A DNA stretch of 64,000 nucleotides from Armatimonadota bacterium (GTDB lineage: Bacteria; Armatimonadota; Fimbriimonadia; Fimbriimonadales; Fimbriimonadaceae). Within the stretch, counting starts at the first letter, position 1. Each line of letters begins with the position of its first letter. Position numbers and translations under genes: made by a program. The stretch covers positions 1,240,001 through 1,304,000 of the forward strand of contig JAFDWS010000002.1 in the NCBI GenBank assembly GCA_018268375.1, written 5' to 3'. The notes under the pieces are model-generated. The model searched no databases. It was not told where the DNA came from and saw only the letters and a program-made list of their open reading frames with translations. Shown in pieces: positions 10,769 to 40,559 of the stretch.

Positions 10769-12070
10769 TTATCGTCTGGGCGAGGGAGCGGCGCCCTGCT
10801 GGCCACCCATGTTGATCATCTTCTTGAGCTCTTCGATGTTCTGGCAGCGGTTGAACGCTTCCTCCATCGTGATGATGCCCTTCATATAGAGGTCGCGCAG
10901 GCACTGGTCCATGCTGAGCATGCCCATGGCGGCGCTGGTCTGGATCATCGAAGGGATCTGGTGGGTCTTGCCTTCACGGATCAAGTTTCGAATGGCGGGC
11001 GAGGCGATCATGATCTCGTTGGCAGGGACGCGGCCCGGGCCGCTCGCCCTCGGCAACAACTGCTGCGCGATGATCGCAACGATGTTGTTCGAGAGCTGGA
11101 CACGGATCTGCTCCTGCTGGCCAGGGGGGAAGACGTCGATGATACGGTCAATGGACTCCGCAGCGTTGTTCGTGTGCAAAGTGGCAAAGACCAAGTGGCC
11201 GGTTTCAGCCGCGGTGATGGCGAGGGCGATCGTCTCCGTGTCGCGCATCTCACCGACGAGGATGACGTCCGGGTCTTCGCGAAGGCAGGCGCGCAGAGCG
11301 TTCGAGAAGCTCTTGGTGTCCATGCCCAACTCGCGCTGATTGATGACCGACAGCTTGTGGGAGTGGAGGTACTCGATCGGGTCTTCGATCGTAATGATGT
11401 GGTGCGACTTGTTCAGGTTGATGAAGTGGATCATCGCGGCGAGCGACGTCGACTTGCCTGAACCTGTCGGGCCGGTGACTAGGATGAGTCCGCGAGGGCG
11501 TTCCGTCAACTGCTCCAAGAGCGGCGGAAGGTTGAGCTCGCGGCACGTCGGAATGCGGTTCGAGATCAATCGGAAGGCAGCCGCGACGGAACCCCGGTCG
11601 CGGTACATGTTGACTCGGAAGCGGGCCCGGCGCGGGAGCTGGTAGGAAAAGTCGAGCTCGAGGGTCTGCTCAAAGCGAGTGATCTGATCGTCGCTGACGA
11701 TCTCGTACATCATGCGCTGGCACTGCTGCGGCGTGAACTTCTCATAGTTCAGCCTCTTGAGCTGGCCGTCTTCTCGAATGATCGGTTCGCTGTGCGAGCA
11801 AATATGCAGGTCCGAGCAGTTACGATCGACCACGACGTGCAGAAGCTCGTCGATGTGGAGGTCTTCGAGCGGCTTAGGTTGGCCCGCACCGACCTTGGCC
11901 ATGCCGCCTTCCGGCTTCTCCTCTTTCGGGGCTTCCGCAGCCCGGTTACCCGTCGCAGGTCCGCCGACGGGAGGCATGTCGGCTTCAGTCTGTGGCTTGG
12001 GCGGTTCGCCGGTCGGGTTGACGACATCTGCTGGCAACGGGGACGGCGTGTAGGGCGGCTGGTTCTCCAT
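10769..12070 (-). CDS. pilT: Type IV pilus retraction ATPase PilT
   Basis: This secretion-superfamily hexameric ATPase drives pilus retraction and twitching. Of 433 residues, the first 67 or so are a proline- and glutamate-rich, probably disordered extension not found in typical PilT (about 350 residues). The core then begins LHIDELLHVVVDRNCSDLHI. Visible motifs are Walker A (GPTGSGKST), the Asp box with ITIEDPIE, Walker B (VILVGEMRD), the His box (HLVFATLHTNNA) and the PilT-specific AIRNLIREGK signature near the C-terminus, which is needed for retraction in known PilT. It lies 52 bases downstream of pilB on the same strand. Confidence 0.96.
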   Translation of the reverse strand: MENQPPYTPSPLPADVVNPTGEPPKPQTEADMPPVGGPATGNRAAEAPKEEKPEGGMAKVGAGQPKPLEDLHIDELLHVVVDRNCSDLHICSHSEPIIREDGQLKRLNYEKFTPQQCQRMMYEIVSDDQITRFEQTLELDFSYQLPRRARFRVNMYRDRGSVAAAFRLISNRIPTCRELNLPPLLEQLTERPRGLILVTGPTGSGKSTSLAAMIHFINLNKSHHIITIEDPIEYLHSHKLSVINQRELGMDTKSFSNALRACLREDPDVILVGEMRDTETIALAITAAETGHLVFATLHTNNAAESIDRIIDVFPPGQQEQIRVQLSNNIVAIIAQQLLPRASGPGRVPANEIMIASPAIRNLIREGKTHQIPSMIQTSAAMGMLSMDQCLRDLYMKGIITMEEAFNRCQNIEELKKMINMGGQQGAAPSPRR

Positions 12071-33370: not shown

Positions 33371-34153
33371 TCAGGCCACTTGTGCCGTCCCCTGCTCTTT
33401 CATAAACGTCCGAAGTCGGGCCATCGCCTGAGTGTGAAGCTGATAGACACGGCTCTCGCTGACACCGAGCACCTTGCCGATCTCCTTGAAGGTCAGGCCC
33501 TCAAAGTAGTAAAGCGCGATGACGAGCCGTTCCCGCTCCGGGAGGTTGTCCACGCCGCTCGCTAGGATACGGCGCAGTTCCTTGCCTTCTGCCTCGCCGT
33601 CCGGACTGGCGTCCTCGTCGACGATCATCTCGATGAAGTGGATGTGGTCGTCTCCGTCGCTGGTTCCGCCGACCACGTCGTCGAGACTGAAGACGCTGGT
33701 CCGGCCAGACCGCACCATCAGGTCGTCGACCTCTTCGTCGGTCATGCCCAGGTAATCGCCAAGCTCGCGGACGGTCGGGGCCTTGCCCAGCGCCGTCTCC
33801 AGCTTTTGCTGAGCTCGCTCAAGCGCCTTGAGCTTCTCACGGATACTGCGGGGCACCCAGTCCTCGTCCCGCAGCATCTCCAGGATTGCGCCGCGGATGA
33901 GGGCAATGGCATAGGTCTCGAACTTGACGTCGCGAGAAGGGTCGTATTGGTCGACGCTCTTGATGAGCCCGATGACGCCGGAACTGACGAGGTCCTCACG
34001 GTCGAGACCGTTGGGGACGTTGCTGACCAATCGGCCGGCGGTGATTTTGACGAGATACGAATAATGGTTGATAAGGTCAAACCGCGCGCGAGGATCCTTG
34101 TACACCTTGTACTCGATCCACGCCCGCTGTAATTGTTCTTGCGACAATGGCAT
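33371..34153 (-). CDS. fliA: RNA polymerase sigma factor FliA/WhiG family
   Basis: This 260-residue sigma-28-type factor for flagellar and motility genes has region 2 with NHYSYLVKITAGRL, LDREDLVSSGVIGLIKSVDQYDP and VKFETYAIALIRGAILEMLRDEDWVPRS, region 3, and region 4 with LPERERLVIALYYFEGLTFKEIGKVLGVSESRVYQ. GGAGGGA six bases before the ATG at 34153 settles the start over an in-frame site at 34180. It follows a small membrane protein and precedes the small acidic protein on the same strand. Confidence 0.95.
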   Translation of the reverse strand: MPLSQEQLQRAWIEYKVYKDPRARFDLINHYSYLVKITAGRLVSNVPNGLDREDLVSSGVIGLIKSVDQYDPSRDVKFETYAIALIRGAILEMLRDEDWVPRSIREKLKALERAQQKLETALGKAPTVRELGDYLGMTDEEVDDLMVRSGRTSVFSLDDVVGGTSDGDDHIHFIEMIVDEDASPDGEAEGKELRRILASGVDNLPERERLVIALYYFEGLTFKEIGKVLGVSESRVYQLHTQAMARLRTFMKEQGTAQVA

Positions 34154-34176
34154 TTGTGTCCCTCCGGAACCCCCGA

Positions 34177-34434
34177 TCAAGCTGCTTCGGCCTCATTGCC
34201 GGAGACAGACTCACCCAGCGGCGGATCCATTTCTGGCCCGTCATTTCTCCCGACGTCCTCCGCCGGGAAAAGGGCGCACCAGACACCTGTCAAGAGCTTT
34301 CCTGCGAAGAAGGCCGCGAGGCCCCTGAGCAAACAAGTCATCGGATCGACCCTGGCGATCACCGCCGAGGCCAAAGCCGCCAAAGCCGTCAAACTGGCCA
34401 CTAAGGTCATGGTCAGTGGCTGTGGCTTCTTCAT
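34177..34434 (-). CDS. Small membrane protein upstream of fliA
   Basis: The protein is 85 residues, with two predicted helices (about 7-27 and 33-55, LLRGLAAFFAGKLLTGVWCALF) and a hydrophilic acidic tail. Similar small membrane proteins sit in flagellar operons of other phyla, but I cannot name it. GAGGG lies 12 bases before this ATG; an in-frame TTG three bases upstream is an alternative start. It ends 23 bases before fliA. The 137-base gap upstream holds no other feature I can support. Confidence 0.7.
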   Translation of the reverse strand: MKKPQPLTMTLVASLTALAALASAVIARVDPMTCLLRGLAAFFAGKLLTGVWCALFPAEDVGRNDGPEMDPPLGESVSGNEAEAA

Positions 34435-34571
34435 CAACGCCGAAAACCCTCACATTTGCTGTCGGCACAAGCTGCGTTCTCCTATAGGTCCAAGATGTAA
34501 AAAAGTGTGAGCTTTTCTAGTCTACGGCATTAAAGTGCCGTTTCAGCATTGGAACTTGGCCGATTTCGAGG

Positions 34572-35333
34572 TTAGAAGGGAATGCGGAGACCGTCATAGG
34601 CGAGCTCGATTCCGGCGGGGAGATCGGCGTTCGTCTGGTCGTGGTCGTAGTCGTCGGACAGGTGCGTGAAATACGTCTGACGGGCACCGAGCTTGAGGGC
34701 CACCTCGATCGCCCTTTCAAAATGGAAGTGGTTCGGGTGGGGCTTGAACCTGACAGCGTCCAACACGAGCACGTCGAGACCCTGCAATTGGGCCCAAGCC
34801 GCTGCCGGGATTTCTCCGACGTCGGTGACGTAGGCGAAGTCGGCCACTCGAATGGCTAGAACCGGCCACCGACCGTGCTCGACCCAAAATGTCTTGATGT
34901 CGAGCCCCGCCAAGTGAAGGACTTTGGGAACGTCGCGAAGGTCGAACCGAGGCACCCAGATCCCTTCAGGGAAGTCCTCGAACGCATAGGGAAAGATCCT
35001 TTTGACGTCCTCTTGGTACTGTGGAGCTGTGTAAACCGGCATCGCCCGCTGATCTCGGATGCACAGCGACCTCAGGTCGTCCATCCCCATCACGTGGTCT
35101 GCATGAGTGTGGGTAAGCAGCACGGCCTCCAGGTTATGAACGCCCTCCCTCGTCAGTTGAAGGCGGAGTTCGGGAGGGCAGTCCACGAGCACGTTCCCAT
35201 CGGGCCCTTGCAACAAGAGGGCGGGCCGAGTGCGATGGTTTTTGGGGTTAGCGAGATAACCGGCCGGATAAGCCTTCCCCAAGGACGGGACGCCGTTGCT
35301 GGTTCCCGACCCGAGGACGATAGCCTGCCCCAT
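34572..35333 (-). CDS. MBL-fold metallo-hydrolase (PhnP-like)
   Basis: This 253-residue metallo-beta-lactamase-fold phosphodiesterase-like enzyme begins MGQAIVLGSGTSNGVPSLG. It carries the dinuclear metal motif HTHADHVMGMDDLR, VTDVGE and a C-terminal THLSDDYDH with further His ligands. It resembles PhnP and related cyclic phosphodiesterases more than RNase Z, but the substrate is not predictable. TAGCCT seven bases before the ATG suggests a leaderless mRNA. It is divergent from pilC copy 2. Confidence 0.9.
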   Translation of the reverse strand: MGQAIVLGSGTSNGVPSLGKAYPAGYLANPKNHRTRPALLLQGPDGNVLVDCPPELRLQLTREGVHNLEAVLLTHTHADHVMGMDDLRSLCIRDQRAMPVYTAPQYQEDVKRIFPYAFEDFPEGIWVPRFDLRDVPKVLHLAGLDIKTFWVEHGRWPVLAIRVADFAYVTDVGEIPAAAWAQLQGLDVLVLDAVRFKPHPNHFHFERAIEVALKLGARQTYFTHLSDDYDHDQTNADLPAGIELAYDGLRIPF

Positions 35334-35340
35334 GGTGCCC

Positions 35341-35346
35341 AGGCTA
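35341..35346 (-). promoter_or_regulatory. -10-like hexamer TAGCCT for the MBL hydrolase gene
   Basis: TAGCCT on the minus strand precedes the ATG at 35333 by a seven-base GC-rich spacer (GGGCACC), with no Shine-Dalgarno sequence. Confidence 0.45.
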
Positions 35347-35451
35347 CCCGTCGTCGCAAGAAATCCCCGTAACCTCCCCTGGGGATCAGGGCCGCCGGTC
35401 GCCGACAATCTCTTTAGGAGCGCCGTGGTGAGCGTTCCGGAGCCGACGAAC

Positions 35452-36657
35452 ATGCCCTTTTATGCCTACACTGCAGTCGATAAGGCGGGCCGCAAGATCA
35501 AAGCGGTCATGGAGGCGGACAACGAGGCCCTCATTCTTCAGCACTTGAGAGCCGAGGCCCTTCAGGTCTTGGAGCTCAAGGAGACCAAGAAGAAGTCCGG
35601 TGGCGGATTCAACAAGGGCAAGATGAAGCCCAAGGCACTGGTCGTGTTCTCACGCCAGTTCGCCACGATGATCGATGCGGGCATCCCGATCCTGAGGTGC
35701 CTGGACATTCTCGTCGGACAGACAAAGGATCCCATCCTCAAGCCCGTCCTCGAGCAAGTACGCAACGACGTCAAAGGAGGCTTGACCCTCACCGAGTCGA
35801 TCGCGAAGCACCCGAACATCTTCAGCAAGCTCTACGTCAACATGATCCGCGCAGCCGAGCTGGGCGGCATCTTGGACGTCATCCTGGACAGGCTCTCTGG
35901 CTTCCTCGAATACGAGAACGAAGTCAGGGCGAAGATCAAGAGCGCGATGATGTACCCGGTGCTCGTCCTTGCCTTCTCCCAGGTCATGCTGTTCGTACTG
36001 TTCAGCTTCGTCCTGCCGAAGTTCAAGGACATCTTTAGCGGCATGAACGTGAAGCTCCCCGCGATGACAGCGATGCTCTTCGCGATGGGAGACTTCATGC
36101 AGAAGTACTGGTGGACCGTCATCTTGATGGTGGTCGCCGGCATCTTCGGGCTCAAGATTTACGGCAAGACGCCTAAGGGACGCTACCAAATGGACTTCTT
36201 GAAGCTGAAGTTCCCCATCATCGGTGAGCTCTCTCTCAAGATGAGCGTCGCGCGCTTCTGCCGCACGTTCGGCACGCTGATCAACAGTGGTGTCCCGATG
36301 ATGCGCAGTCTGGAGATTGTTGGCGAGACGATGGCGAACGCCGTCCTTGCCGAAGCCATCGACAACACCCGCGTCAGCATCAGAGAGGGCCAGAAACTCT
36401 CCCTGCCGCTTTCGCAGAGCGGACTGTTTCCCAGCATGGTCACCCACATGATCGACGTTGGTGAAGAATCCGGCCGTCTGAGCGAAATGCTCGTGAAGGT
36501 CGGGGACTTCTACGACACCGAAGTGGAAGCCACCGTCAAGGGCCTGACGTCGATGATCGAGCCGCTGCTGATCATCTTCTTGGGCGGCGTGGTCGGCTTC
36601 ATCGCCATCTCAGTCATGACACCGATCTTCACGCTGGTCAACAACGTTAGCAAGTAA
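35452..36657 (+). CDS. pilC: Type IV pilus inner-membrane platform protein PilC (copy 2)
   Basis: This 401-residue PilC/GspF protein starts MPFYAYTAVDKAGRK and carries two T2SSF domains with the FSRQFATMIDAGIPILRCLDIL and ARFCRTFGTLINSGVPMMRSLEIV blocks. It is a paralog of the protein at 8763-9995. It may be the platform for a second pilus or a type II-like secretion pseudopilus. It is followed after 129 bases by the sigma-GGDEF gene. GGAG lies 12 bases upstream, and an in-frame upstream extension lacks homology. Confidence 0.94.
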   Translation: MPFYAYTAVDKAGRKIKAVMEADNEALILQHLRAEALQVLELKETKKKSGGGFNKGKMKPKALVVFSRQFATMIDAGIPILRCLDILVGQTKDPILKPVLEQVRNDVKGGLTLTESIAKHPNIFSKLYVNMIRAAELGGILDVILDRLSGFLEYENEVRAKIKSAMMYPVLVLAFSQVMLFVLFSFVLPKFKDIFSGMNVKLPAMTAMLFAMGDFMQKYWWTVILMVVAGIFGLKIYGKTPKGRYQMDFLKLKFPIIGELSLKMSVARFCRTFGTLINSGVPMMRSLEIVGETMANAVLAEAIDNTRVSIREGQKLSLPLSQSGLFPSMVTHMIDVGEESGRLSEMLVKVGDFYDTEVEATVKGLTSMIEPLLIIFLGGVVGFIAISVMTPIFTLVNNVSK

Positions 36658-36786
36658 CCCCGGCACCGGCTGCGGCCGGAGCCACCGACCCGGCGCCAAA
36701 GGCGCCAAAAAAGCAAATCTCGCGGCACCTGGAGGGGCGCAGCGGGCGCTGGACAAGATGTCTGGCGGACGAATCACGGAGCGAAT

Positions 36787-38049
36787 ATGTCAGAGGCTTT
36801 GGCCGGATCTAAGAAGGACGTCGAGCAGTTGGTGCTCGAATACAGCGAGTCGCGTCGACCCGACTTGAAGGACTTGATCATCTTGCAGTGTTCAGGGATG
36901 ATCGAACGCATCGCGCGCCGCTTCAGCGGCGTCGAGCCGTTCGACGACCTTGTCCAAGTTGGCTATATCGGGTTGCTCAACGCGCTCTCCAAGTTCGATC
37001 CTGCGAACGGGGTCCGGTTCAACACCTATGCGACGCACTTGGTGGCTGGCGAGATCAAGCACTATCTCCGCGACCGCTCACAAATCATCCGTCACCCTGC
37101 ATGGGTGCAGGAACTCCGTCAGCGCCTGAACAAGGCCTCCGTGGCCTTGCAGGCAGAATTGGGAAGGCAACCGACGATCCGCGAGATTGCGGAGGCTTGC
37201 TCCGTCAGCGAGAACGCTGTCGAGGAAGTCCTTGCCACCCAGGACCTGCTCCGTGTCTCGAGCCTCGATGCGCCATCCTCGTCGGACGAAGACGGTGAAA
37301 GCGAGATCGACAAGCTCGATGCGATCGGCCCCTGCCAGGGCCAGCTTGGCGTAGAAGAGCGGGTCGTGCTGGAGGCCGCCATCAGCCAATTACGCGACCT
37401 CGAGCGGGACGTCCTGACGATGTTCCACTTCGAAATGCTGAGTCAAACCGAGATCGCGGCGAAGCTCGATATCTCGTGCAACTACGTCTCGCACATCCTG
37501 AGGCAGTCTCTCAACAAGCTCCGCAAGGCCCTGGTCAACGAGGAAGAGGCGGACCGCGCCCTGCGCAAGGATCTGCCCAACGAGGGCGACTCGCTGGACA
37601 CTGAGTCCCGCGCCTATTCCGAGCAGTACTTCATCAACCGGTTGACAGAGGAGATCCATCGCGTGGTCGGAACCGAAAACTCCGTCGCCGTCATCAGCGT
37701 CCAGTTCAGCGGCCTGTCCTCGCTCCAAGGCTTCTATGGGACGAACAGCGTGCGCGACTTCCTGGTGGATGCCGCCGAGTTCCTCCGCCACTCAGTCCGC
37801 TCGCTTGACGTGGTTTGCCGCTATGGAACCACCGGCTTCGGAATCATCTTGCCAGACACCGGCGAGCGCGCGACCCAAGTGTTCCAGAGGCTGCACCGCA
37901 GGTTCGAGCAATGGATGCTCGGCCGCTTCGGGAACAACGGCTCGATCCACGCGGACATCGGCTTTGCCACCGCACCGATCGACGGACGCTCGGTCAACGA
38001 GATCGTGGCCAAGCTCGCCGAGGGCGATGCGACGAAGAAGGCTGCCTGA
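36787..38049 (+). CDS. Sigma factor fused to degenerate GGDEF domain
   Basis: The protein is 420 residues. The first 250 or so are a SigB/SigF/FliA-type sigma factor: region 2 with DDLVQVGYIGLLNALSKFDP and RFNTYATHLVAGEIKHYLRD (about 53-95), region 3 with GRQPTIREIAEACSVSE, and region 4 with LRDLERDVLTMFHFEMLSQTEIAAKLDIS (about 202-230). Residues about 275-415 look like a GGDEF domain, but the active-site GGDEF is replaced by RYGTTGF (345-351), so cyclase activity is unlikely. It may sense c-di-GMP, GTP or a protein partner and modulate the sigma. GGAG lies about 8 bases before the ATG. Confidence 0.9.
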   Translation: MSEALAGSKKDVEQLVLEYSESRRPDLKDLIILQCSGMIERIARRFSGVEPFDDLVQVGYIGLLNALSKFDPANGVRFNTYATHLVAGEIKHYLRDRSQIIRHPAWVQELRQRLNKASVALQAELGRQPTIREIAEACSVSENAVEEVLATQDLLRVSSLDAPSSSDEDGESEIDKLDAIGPCQGQLGVEERVVLEAAISQLRDLERDVLTMFHFEMLSQTEIAAKLDISCNYVSHILRQSLNKLRKALVNEEEADRALRKDLPNEGDSLDTESRAYSEQYFINRLTEEIHRVVGTENSVAVISVQFSGLSSLQGFYGTNSVRDFLVDAAEFLRHSVRSLDVVCRYGTTGFGIILPDTGERATQVFQRLHRRFEQWMLGRFGNNGSIHADIGFATAPIDGRSVNEIVAKLAEGDATKKAA

Positions 38050-38063
38050 TCGCGTAATCGGGC

Positions 38064-38069
38064 CACAAT
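38064..38069 (+). promoter_or_regulatory. -10-like hexamer CACAAT
   Basis: CACAAT ends nine bases before the TTG start at 38079. No Shine-Dalgarno sequence is visible. Confidence 0.4.
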
Positions 38070-38078
38070 CAGTGTGCC

Positions 38079-38744
38079 TTGAACCCATACGAAGACCTCC
38101 ACCTGCGTGAGCCTTCCGGCGCGAGCCCCTTCGTGGCAATCAACATGGTCACGACGATTGACGGCAAGATCCTGTCAGGCGGTCGCGACGAGGGCGTCAT
38201 GGATCTGGGCAGCCCGGTCGACCACCAGGCCATGCGTAACATTGAGGCGGCTTGCGACGCCGTGATGATCGGCGCGGGCACGCTCCGGGCCACCAAAGGG
38301 CTCTGGTACGACGCCCGCCTGACCCGAATCGTGGTCAGCCCCAGCGGCAATCTGCCCTACCAGTCCCGCTTCTTCACCGACGCACCCGAAAAGGCGTGGG
38401 TGTTGACGAGCGAAGTGGGCGAATCCGCGGTTCCTTCGAACGTTCAGCGTATCGCGACGAAAGAGCCGATCGAATGGCCTGGCGTCCTCGAGAGGCTGGG
38501 CAACGAATTGGGCGTCAGACGCTTGCTCGTCGAAGGAGGTTCCGAGTTGAACGCTTCTTTGCTCGCCCAAGATGTGGTCGATGAGCTCTTCTGGACTGTC
38601 GCTCCGAAGGTCCGACTCGGCCGAAACATCCCGACCTACGCAGATGGGGAGCCCTTCCCTCGCCACGGCCTCCTCAAATTCAGCCTTGTCTCCAACCTCG
38701 TCATCGACGACGAAGTGTTCCTGCGCTATAGGCGGTCACGCTAA
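38079..38744 (+). CDS. RibD C-terminal/dihydrofolate reductase-family protein
   Basis: This 221-residue reductase-fold protein of the RibD_C family has VAINMVTTIDGKILSGGRDEG, a nucleotide-binding MIGAGTLRATKG and VRRLLVEGGSELNASLLAQDVVDELFWTVAPKV. Family members reduce a pteridine or pyrimidine intermediate with NADPH, for example in riboflavin synthesis. The deaminase half of RibD is absent, so its exact substrate is unknown. The start is TTG, 30 bases after the sigma-GGDEF stop, with CACAAT upstream. Confidence 0.9.
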   Translation: MNPYEDLHLREPSGASPFVAINMVTTIDGKILSGGRDEGVMDLGSPVDHQAMRNIEAACDAVMIGAGTLRATKGLWYDARLTRIVVSPSGNLPYQSRFFTDAPEKAWVLTSEVGESAVPSNVQRIATKEPIEWPGVLERLGNELGVRRLLVEGGSELNASLLAQDVVDELFWTVAPKVRLGRNIPTYADGEPFPRHGLLKFSLVSNLVIDDEVFLRYRRSR

Positions 38745-38775
38745 GTCCGCCCGTGCATGCGGAACACTAAGCACC

Positions 38776-39918
38776 TTGCGCAATCCTTTGGCCCCGACGG
38801 TGTTCCTCGTCAGGAACGCCGGAAAGACCTTGCCCCTGATCGGCGTGATCGTCTTGGCCGTCATGCTGATCGCTGGGATCGTGGCCATCATGGACAGCAT
38901 CCCCCTCAGCATCCGCACCACTTATGGCTACAGCAAAGCCTACTTAGGGGTGACACCCCGTGGCAACAACGCCATGACGCCCGTCCTGCGGACTCAGATT
39001 GAACAGGAAGCGCCCGTGCCTCTCGGCCCGGTCATGACCTGCCGGGCCAGCGATTGCGAGGTCAAGAGCATCGTGGGCCCCTGGAGGTTTGTGGTCCTCG
39101 CCCTGTCCCAGGAGGATATGCGCACCTACCTCTCGCGGCTCGGGGGAGGGCGGGTCGAGGGCCGGTGGCCCAGCTCCGGCGCTCCCGAGGCGATCGTCAG
39201 CGAACCTGTTGCTAGGAACCTGGGCAAGCGGATCGGGGACACAATGCTGAGCCCGACCGACGTCAATAATTTCTCACCCAAACCGGTGAAGATCGTCGGG
39301 ATCGTCCACATGCAACCGTGGATGGCCCTCATGCCGATTGAATACCACCGCAAGTACCACTTCCCCCCGATCGACCTCCTCATCGTGATGGCCAAGGACA
39401 TTCGAGACCAGGACAGACTCGACCGGTGGGCCTTCGAAAGGTTCAAGGGACAGCAGGCGAGGGTCTTCGCCTACTTCGAGTTGGAGAAGGAGACGGACGA
39501 GATGTTCCGCATCCTTTACTCGATCCTGAACGTGGTGATCGGCATGCTCGTGGTGGTGATCACCTTGATGATGGCGATGCTCATGAACATCTACCAGTCG
39601 CAGAGGATCCAAGAGTTTGGATTGCTGCAAGCCCTCGGATACACCCGGAGCATTCTGCTCAAGCGTGTCTTGGCGGAGACCGCCTTGGTCGTGGTGGGCG
39701 GCTGGATCATCGGCTTGGGCGTCGCTTTCCTGGCCCTCCTGATTGTCCGGGCGGTGCTGATGGAGCCAAGGGCCTTCATGCTGGATCCGGGCGACTTCAA
39801 GGCCTACTCCTACACGATCCCCGTGCCGATAGCAATCTTTGTCGCGGCGACCTTCACAGTGGTGCAGCGCTTCCGCAGGTTCGATCCCGTCGGCGTGGTC
39901 GAAAGGAGGCTGGTTTGA
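38776..39918 (+). CDS. ABC transporter permease (FtsX/MacB-like)
   Basis: Starting at TTG 38776 this is 380 residues. An N-terminal helix (LIGVIVLAVMLIAGIVAIMD) precedes a large extracytoplasmic domain and three C-terminal helices, including VVIGMLVVVITLMMAMLMNIYQ. The conserved segment QEFGLLQALGYTRSILLKRVLAE is the ATPase-contact region of FtsX/MacB-type permeases. These usually couple ATP use to envelope processes or lipoprotein export rather than uptake. The start codon is not certain; GTG 38809 is an alternative. The stop overlaps the start of the ATPase gene. Confidence 0.88.
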   Translation: MRNPLAPTVFLVRNAGKTLPLIGVIVLAVMLIAGIVAIMDSIPLSIRTTYGYSKAYLGVTPRGNNAMTPVLRTQIEQEAPVPLGPVMTCRASDCEVKSIVGPWRFVVLALSQEDMRTYLSRLGGGRVEGRWPSSGAPEAIVSEPVARNLGKRIGDTMLSPTDVNNFSPKPVKIVGIVHMQPWMALMPIEYHRKYHFPPIDLLIVMAKDIRDQDRLDRWAFERFKGQQARVFAYFELEKETDEMFRILYSILNVVIGMLVVVITLMMAMLMNIYQSQRIQEFGLLQALGYTRSILLKRVLAETALVVVGGWIIGLGVAFLALLIVRAVLMEPRAFMLDPGDFKAYSYTIPVPIAIFVAATFTVVQRFRRFDPVGVVERRLV

Positions 39919-40559
39919 TCCAAGTCGATAAGGCGTCCCTGGTCTACAACGACCACGGCCGTGACGTCTATGCCTGCCGTTCGATCGACCTGGAGGTCAA
40001 GGACGGTGAGTTCCTAGGGATCTTGGGGCCAAGCGGATCCGGAAAGTCATCTCTGCTGTACTTGATGTGCGGCCTGAAGACCCCACACGAGGGGCAAGTG
40101 CTTTATCGAGGAAGGGTTGTGCAGGCGATGGACGAACAGGAGCGCGCTTCCCTTCGGCTCAACCGCTTCGGCTTCGTCTTTCAATATCCTTACCTCCTCG
40201 GCTATTTGTCGGCCCTTGAGAACGTGCTCGTCGCCCAGCCCTCTGGCCATCGCCGGGCTGAGGCGGTCGCATTGTTGGAGAGCTTGGGCCTGGGCGATAA
40301 GCTCCATCGCCTGCCTCACGAACTGAGCGGCGGGGAAAAGCAACGGGTGTGCATTGCCCGCGCGCTCCTTGGCGGCCGCGAGGTCATTTTTGCTGACGAG
40401 CCGACCGCCAACCTCGATCATCGCAACGGGGTCGCCGTTGTCGAGACGCTTGTCGCCTCCCGAGGAACAGGCAGCCTCGTTATGGTCACCCACGACCCAA
40501 CCATGCTGGAGAAAGCGGACCGGGTCGTCACGATCGCGGACGGCGAGCTTGTCCAATGA
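39915..40559 (+). CDS. ABC transporter ATP-binding protein (LolD/MacB-like)
   Basis: This 214-residue ABC ATPase has Walker A (GPSGSGKSS), Q-loop (FQYPYLLG), signature (LSGGEKQRVCIARALL), Walker B (VIFADEPTANLD) and switch His (VTHDP). AAAGGAGG five bases before TTG 39915 fixes the start, which overlaps the permease stop (TTGA). It forms the energy-coupling half of the transporter encoded by the preceding gene. Similar pairs include LolCD and MacB-type exporters, but the cargo is unknown. Confidence 0.96.
   Translation: MIQVDKASLVYNDHGRDVYACRSIDLEVKDGEFLGILGPSGSGKSSLLYLMCGLKTPHEGQVLYRGRVVQAMDEQERASLRLNRFGFVFQYPYLLGYLSALENVLVAQPSGHRRAEAVALLESLGLGDKLHRLPHELSGGEKQRVCIARALLGGREVIFADEPTANLDHRNGVAVVETLVASRGTGSLVMVTHDPTMLEKADRVVTIADGELVQ

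Follow-up and report, generated by a model that had tools for sequence, protein, structure and literature searches.

The gene at 36787..38049 of the window (the whole 64,000-nucleotide stretch of DNA that was analysed) encodes a sigma factor that continues in the same frame into a degenerate GGDEF domain. We think that this protein is probably a c-di-GMP-responsive sigma factor with a regulon tied to a type IV pilus and with additional layers of control through CsrA and a C-terminal Ala-Ala sequence, while c-di-GMP binding, dimerisation, gating, the target genes and the action of ClpXP and CsrA are all inferred.

A sigma factor with a GGDEF domain in the same open frame

The gene and its domains are arranged as follows:
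36787..38049, + strand: sigma-GGDEF fusion gene, 420 aa (ATG start; frame matches relatives)
36889..37080, + strand: sigma-70 region 2, aa 35-98 (Pfam PF04542)
37111..37302, + strand: sigma-70 region 3, aa 109-172 (Pfam PF04539)
37378..37527, + strand: sigma-70 region 4, aa 198-247 (Pfam PF04545)
37579..38040, + strand: GGDEF-fold domain, aa 265-418 (PF00990 and structure match)

This architecture of sigma regions 2-4 followed by GGDEF within 36787-38049 had been proposed in the original prediction and is reproduced by the open reading frame and by Pfam, where all four matches (Sigma70_r2, Sigma70_r3, Sigma70_r4 and GGDEF) exceed the curated cut-offs and the GGDEF match spans aa 275-408 (54 bits, E 2e-14). 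The best NCBIfam model is that of SigB/SigF/SigG (TIGR02980), with 187.9 bits and thus below its curated cut-off of 234.35, so that the sigma half appears related to this group without being a member by NCBIfam score; the nearest solved structure by sequence is Staphylococcus aureus SigB (8x6g). An AlphaFold2 model of the protein has a mean pLDDT of 79 and a pTM of 0.38, meaning that the mutual placement of the sigma and GGDEF halves is not determined despite good local confidence. Residues 267-418 of the model match GGDEF structures with Z scores of 16-19, including Thermotoga maritima 4urs (Z 18.6, rmsd 2.4 over 147) and PleD 2wb4 (Z 18.1, rmsd 2.5 over 150; model residues 265..418 on chain residues 286..445). 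The comparison of a predicted structure with GGDEF folds, which had been suggested as a check, has therefore recovered this fold, and a non-GGDEF fold is ruled out.

The fusion is found in a single open frame in 58 of the 61 genomes of the genus, family and order, counting the source genome; the named relatives belong to the Fimbriimonadales/Fimbriimonadaceae of the Armatimonadota. The three genomes without it (G024, G052 and G054) are 72-86% complete, and in a few further genomes such as G003 and G167 a stop or the end of a contig interrupts the fusion. In the near-complete genome G167, the frame is cut within the GGDEF domain (L128, G167:C1:2834296) with one TGA on read-through, and the fusion there may be broken or mis-assembled. 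This search of related genomes had likewise been suggested, and the shared open frame rules out that a sequencing error has joined two separate genes. By our own count, roughly 33 of the 45 Armatimonadota families sampled contain the fusion, while the best matches in families f39-f43 and f45 are of plain sigma length only; presence in most sampled families indicates that the fusion is old. A search of plasmids from outside the phylum gives 195 matching records, none of which covers 80% of the query, with plain sigma factors as the top matches, although this search does not cover the chromosomes of other phyla.

Loss of the active site and retention of the inhibitory site

Four features of the GGDEF domain are central to our interpretation, with conservation counted over 128 aligned fusion homologues:
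37660..37662, + strand: Arg292, equivalent of PleD R313 (127/128; offset from comparison with the PDB structure)
37798..37809, + strand: RxxD I-site, Arg338-Asp341, equivalent of PleD R359/D362 (R 128/128, D 127/128)
37819..37839, + strand: degenerate active-site motif RYGTTGF, aa 345-351 (sequence and homologue alignment)
37888..37890, + strand: Arg368, equivalent of PleD R390 with a one-residue shift (122/128)

The RYGTTGF sequence is present where it had been described, and the inference of dead catalysis drawn from it extends, on sequence evidence, to the whole phylum: a G[GS][DE][DE]F motif is found in none of the 128 homologues, and at the positions equivalent to PleD D327, N335, D344, G369, E370 and E371 the commonest residue reaches only 21-45%. 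An active diguanylate cyclase is ruled out by this motif together with the variable catalytic positions. The conservation ranking within the domain is instead led by R338, D341 and R292, followed by P356, E289, R285 and R368; this retention of the I-site was not part of the original prediction. In PleD, the four equivalent residues form the c-di-GMP inhibitory site, with three contributed by one domain and R313 by its neighbour (PMC7288161), and through this site c-di-GMP dimers hold two GGDEF domains together (PMC7288161, PMC12943098). The assignment of these residues rests on the homologue L104, which is near-canonical (GGGTF) and whose PleD offset places them on R359, D362, R313 and R390, and the structural alignment to PleD gives the same offset. 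L104 and L106 look like intermediates descending from an active domain.

The source genome encodes ten GGDEF places (including the fusion), one EAL, five HD-GYP and four PilZ domains and, judged from these enzymes, both makes and breaks c-di-GMP. RxxD is also present in six of its nine other GGDEF domains and is common in active GGDEF domains, which makes it weak evidence on its own, and its conservation could partly be structural. What carries weight is that all four I-site residues are kept while the rest is lost across the entire phylum. Catalytic loss combined with a near-invariant I-site makes c-di-GMP the specific predicted ligand, in the absence of binding data. The nucleotide or protein signal originally envisaged is thereby narrowed to c-di-GMP, while binding and gating remain inferences.

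Two other readings of these patterns have to be considered. The degenerate domain might be a protein-docking or dimerisation module that binds no c-di-GMP and has kept RxxD for folding or as a partner surface, with an adaptor, an anti-sigma factor, a pilus ATPase or a partner diguanylate cyclase as possible partners. Degenerate GGDEF domains do often work via protein contacts, and conservation extends beyond the I-site to E288, E289 and R285 of the first helix. However, a role in structure alone gives no reason to expect retention of just those four residues that contact c-di-GMP amid drifting neighbours, and the source genome has an active c-di-GMP system, so we see docking alone as unlikely without dismissing it. 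Far harder to sustain is the idea that the protein is simply an alternative sigma factor whose GGDEF tail is a vestige without function. It would fit the loss of the catalytic residues and the shortened end of the domain, but a vestige would be expected to erode or vanish, whereas this domain stays in frame across most families with near-invariant positions; we give this idea very little credence.

The C-terminal Ala-Ala sequence

The protein ends in a short sequence that resembles known degradation signals:
38041..38046, + strand: C-terminal Ala-Ala, aa 419-420, candidate ClpXP-type degron (homologue tails)

ClpX is known to read the Ala-Ala ends of ssrA tags. Ala-Ala forms the end of 97 of the 128 homologues (source protein included) and Val-Ala that of another four, with tails of 19-50 residues past P397. 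As background, about 13 of 868 other open reading frames of at least 200 aa at the same loci (about 1.5%) end in this way, or 23 of 879 before removal of sigma fusions and of cyclases fetched for another reason. The CtrA degron similarly ends in NAA (review, PMC8138137). The most distant families do not have the Ala-Ala tail even though the I-site is present, indicating that the tail was gained or lost within the phylum. Ala-Ala ends are also found in 20 of 35 distinct other GGDEF proteins sampled from the lineage (L134-L142 of the source genome itself and L194-L221), which raises the possibility that a C-terminal degron is a general means of controlling the c-di-GMP enzymes of this lineage. 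In family f2, an apparent Ala-Ala end is also seen in PilT-like proteins encoded close to the fusion (L109, L110 and L112).

These observations leave room for a model in which c-di-GMP sets the stability of the sigma factor via ClpXP rather than its binding to RNA polymerase, with a PopA-like GGDEF domain and a CtrA-like tail combined in one chain. Both the frequency of the Ala-Ala end among the homologues and its occurrence on other GGDEF proteins of the lineage favour it, as does the precedent of PopA, a degenerate GGDEF protein with RxxD that directs CtrA to ClpXP (PMC12564702). Yet the I-site of distant families without Ala-Ala implies that the ancestral function can do without the tail, which may also be constitutive. 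We regard stability control as the sole effect of c-di-GMP as rather improbable and favour a c-di-GMP-responsive sigma factor for which turnover is one additional layer.

A putative CsrA-type mRNA leader

The leader of the gene contains the following elements:
36658..36786, + strand: leader between pilC and the sigma gene
36719..36746, + strand: imperfect hairpin with loop GGAG at 36731-36734 (predicted minimum-free-energy fold; weaker than in relatives)
36747..36767, + strand: 9-bp hairpin with loop AGA, located where relatives have an AGGA-loop hairpin (fold compared with relatives' leaders)
36776..36781, + strand: ACGGAG ribosome-binding site, also fitting ANGGA (A(C/T)GGAG kept in many relatives)

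Hairpins of at least 5 bp with GGA in the loop are found within 150 nt of the start in 53 of 67 leaders of the order, compared to 26 of 206 controls (12.6%) and 6.6 in shuffled leaders (Fisher p 6e-24, with leaders that are not independent). Stems of at least 7 bp occur in 43% of the order's leaders versus 2.4%, and the hairpin centres cluster at -32, -60 and -8. When GGAs are picked by position only, their flanks pair as stems in 66% of cases versus 31-48% when slid, and up to six pair types per stem position are seen as covariation. This resembles the CsrA consensus RUACARGGAUGU, in which GGA is presented in a hairpin loop, and the glgC arrangement, in which a second CsrA site lies over the ribosome-binding site (PMC7652899). 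CsrA is encoded in 59 of the 61 genomes including the source genome. The layout of at least two GGA motifs, one looped and one at the ribosome-binding site, is order-wide, and the window's own leader has a weak version of it in which the stem of the -32 hairpin is present with loop AGA, not AGGA. The far families show little or no GGA-hairpin leader, and Rfam found no known RNA family over 34000-40000. We therefore consider the CsrA layer a property of the order that is only probable for the source genome, with CsrA action itself inferred.

Association with a type IV pilus

The gene upstream encodes a component of type IV pilus systems:
35452..36657, + strand: pilC (T2SSF), directly upstream (PF00482; adjacency in relatives and co-loss)

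The pilC gene that was originally noted directly before the fusion is supported by its Pfam match, and it lies directly upstream on the same strand at 37 of 64 relatives' loci, 20 of them from distant families, with many of the remaining loci interrupted by contig ends. At the distant locus L100, genes for a secretin, PilB with an MshEN domain, PilT, PilC and the sigma-GGDEF protein stand in a row. The PilB(MshEN)-PilT pair of the order is located elsewhere in the genome, leaving pilC as the only link in cis in this order. In genus g19, all nine genomes with the sigma factor have the orthologous pilC adjoining it (E 1e-170 or better), while all eight near-complete genomes without the sigma factor lack this orthologue (best matches of 1e-97 to 1e-104 are paralogues); the matching pilT scores 1e-156 or better with the sigma factor versus 1e-114 to 1e-138 without it. 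The Fisher p value of 4e-5 for this co-occurrence ignores the non-independence of genomes of the same genus, and the co-loss may represent one or a few events. The eight g19 genomes without the sigma-GGDEF gene, its pilC and its pilT (G128, G129, G130, G137, G139, G141, G142 and G144) offer natural knock-outs for comparison.

Phylum-wide synteny and co-loss thus strengthen the originally suggested link to pili, while the pilus regulon itself is inferred; that no target promoter was found speaks against this reading. A promoter motif common to the region upstream of the fusion gene was sought and rejected, as the enriched word pairs mostly represent the 3' end of pilC. In the co-inherited pilus set, PilB (L226:6672-8525) has an MshEN domain. 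Such domains are known elsewhere as c-di-GMP binders, so that c-di-GMP may act on both expression and assembly of the pilus. A further PilT/PilB-type ATPase pair in the window, at 10814-11878 (- strand) and about 12467 (- strand), is a second pilus or secretion set.

Possible control without a separate anti-sigma factor

Control of a sigma factor normally falls to a separate anti-sigma protein. No stand-alone RsbW-like protein (short HATPase_c_2) was seen in the source genome, where every HATPase_c_2 match falls within a frame of 447-933 aa, a size to be expected of kinases; short stand-alone HATPase_c_2 proteins are present in relatives G009 and G039. Control without an anti-sigma factor, as initially proposed for this gene, is therefore plausible, though it rests on the absence of an RsbW-like protein alone and other types, RsiG-like ones included, are not excluded. 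A second, FliA/WhiG-like sigma gene ending in Val-Ala lies 2.6 kb from the fusion (window 33371-34180, - strand), and a sigma gene a short way from the fusion recurs in G007, G013, G018, G019, G027, G032 and G033.

Proposed mechanism and relation to known systems

We propose a SigB/F/G-like sigma factor whose own chain includes a degenerate GGDEF domain, without catalysis but with all four residues of the inhibitory site. Binding of a c-di-GMP dimer by R338, D341 and R368 of one molecule and R292 of another would clamp two GGDEF domains together and alter the amount of sigma factor able to engage RNA polymerase; such an effect would follow from the position of the GGDEF domain directly behind region 4. 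We favour lower sigma activity at high c-di-GMP, by analogy with the sequestration of WhiG by RsiG, although this direction is no more than a guess. As output we envisage the regulon of one type IV pilus system, represented by pilB-pilT-pilC of the co-inherited set. CsrA-type repression of translation via the GGA hairpins of the leader would, in this order, lower the level of the sigma factor, and a further reduction would come from turnover through the putative Ala-Ala degron, and c-di-GMP binding might also change recognition of this degron.

The nearest precedent for this logic is the WhiG-RsiG-c-di-GMP switch of Actinobacteria and, for the receptor, PopA of Caulobacter. Like the proposed system, WhiG-RsiG couples a FliA/WhiG/SigB-class sigma factor to c-di-GMP and, in Rubrobacter, acts on type IV pilus genes (PMC8325347), but c-di-GMP there binds the separate coiled-coil anti-sigma factor RsiG, whereas the candidate receptor of the fusion lies in the sigma factor itself. 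PopA has a dead active site with RxxD kept, acts as a c-di-GMP effector and is linked to ClpXP, yet it is no sigma factor but an adaptor of the response-regulator type, acting in trans on CtrA. Degenerate GGDEF receptors such as PelD similarly read c-di-GMP through the I-site, though with polysaccharide export as the output of PelD instead of promoter choice. The hallmarks of PopA/PelD-type effectors, i.e., a GGDEF fold, RxxD and equivalents of R390 and R313, are all present in the fusion, from which c-di-GMP binding is inferred. SigB/SigF/SigG proteins share regions 2, 3 and 4, the best NCBIfam match and the closest structure, but the fusion differs by its score below the cut-off, its extra GGDEF domain and the lack of a visible stand-alone RsbW-like partner in the source genome. 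ECF41 and ECF42 sigma factors also have regulatory domains fused behind region 4, but these C-terminal SnoaL-like or TPR extensions are not nucleotide receptors. We found no description of a sigma-GGDEF fusion, or of a sigma factor with its own c-di-GMP-type domain, in the open-access literature, in agreement with the earlier statement that no such regulator is well described. Degenerate GGDEF receptors and c-di-GMP-controlled sigma factors are each known, and we believe that their combination is undescribed.

Extended to the whole phylum, these sigma factors could form a class of second-messenger receptors in which the c-di-GMP dimer clamp on the sigma factor's own GGDEF domain directly sets the promoter choice of RNA polymerase and, with CsrA on the mRNA and Ala-Ala-dependent proteolysis on the protein, builds a three-level type IV pilus switch, a possibility that we take seriously but hold only tentatively. 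If the c-di-GMP site is real, no shorter route by which a second messenger sets promoter choice would be known. For the Armatimonadota, a poorly studied phylum with almost no genetics, our findings suggest that a single regulator of type IV pili is the point where c-di-GMP, CsrA and proteolysis meet.
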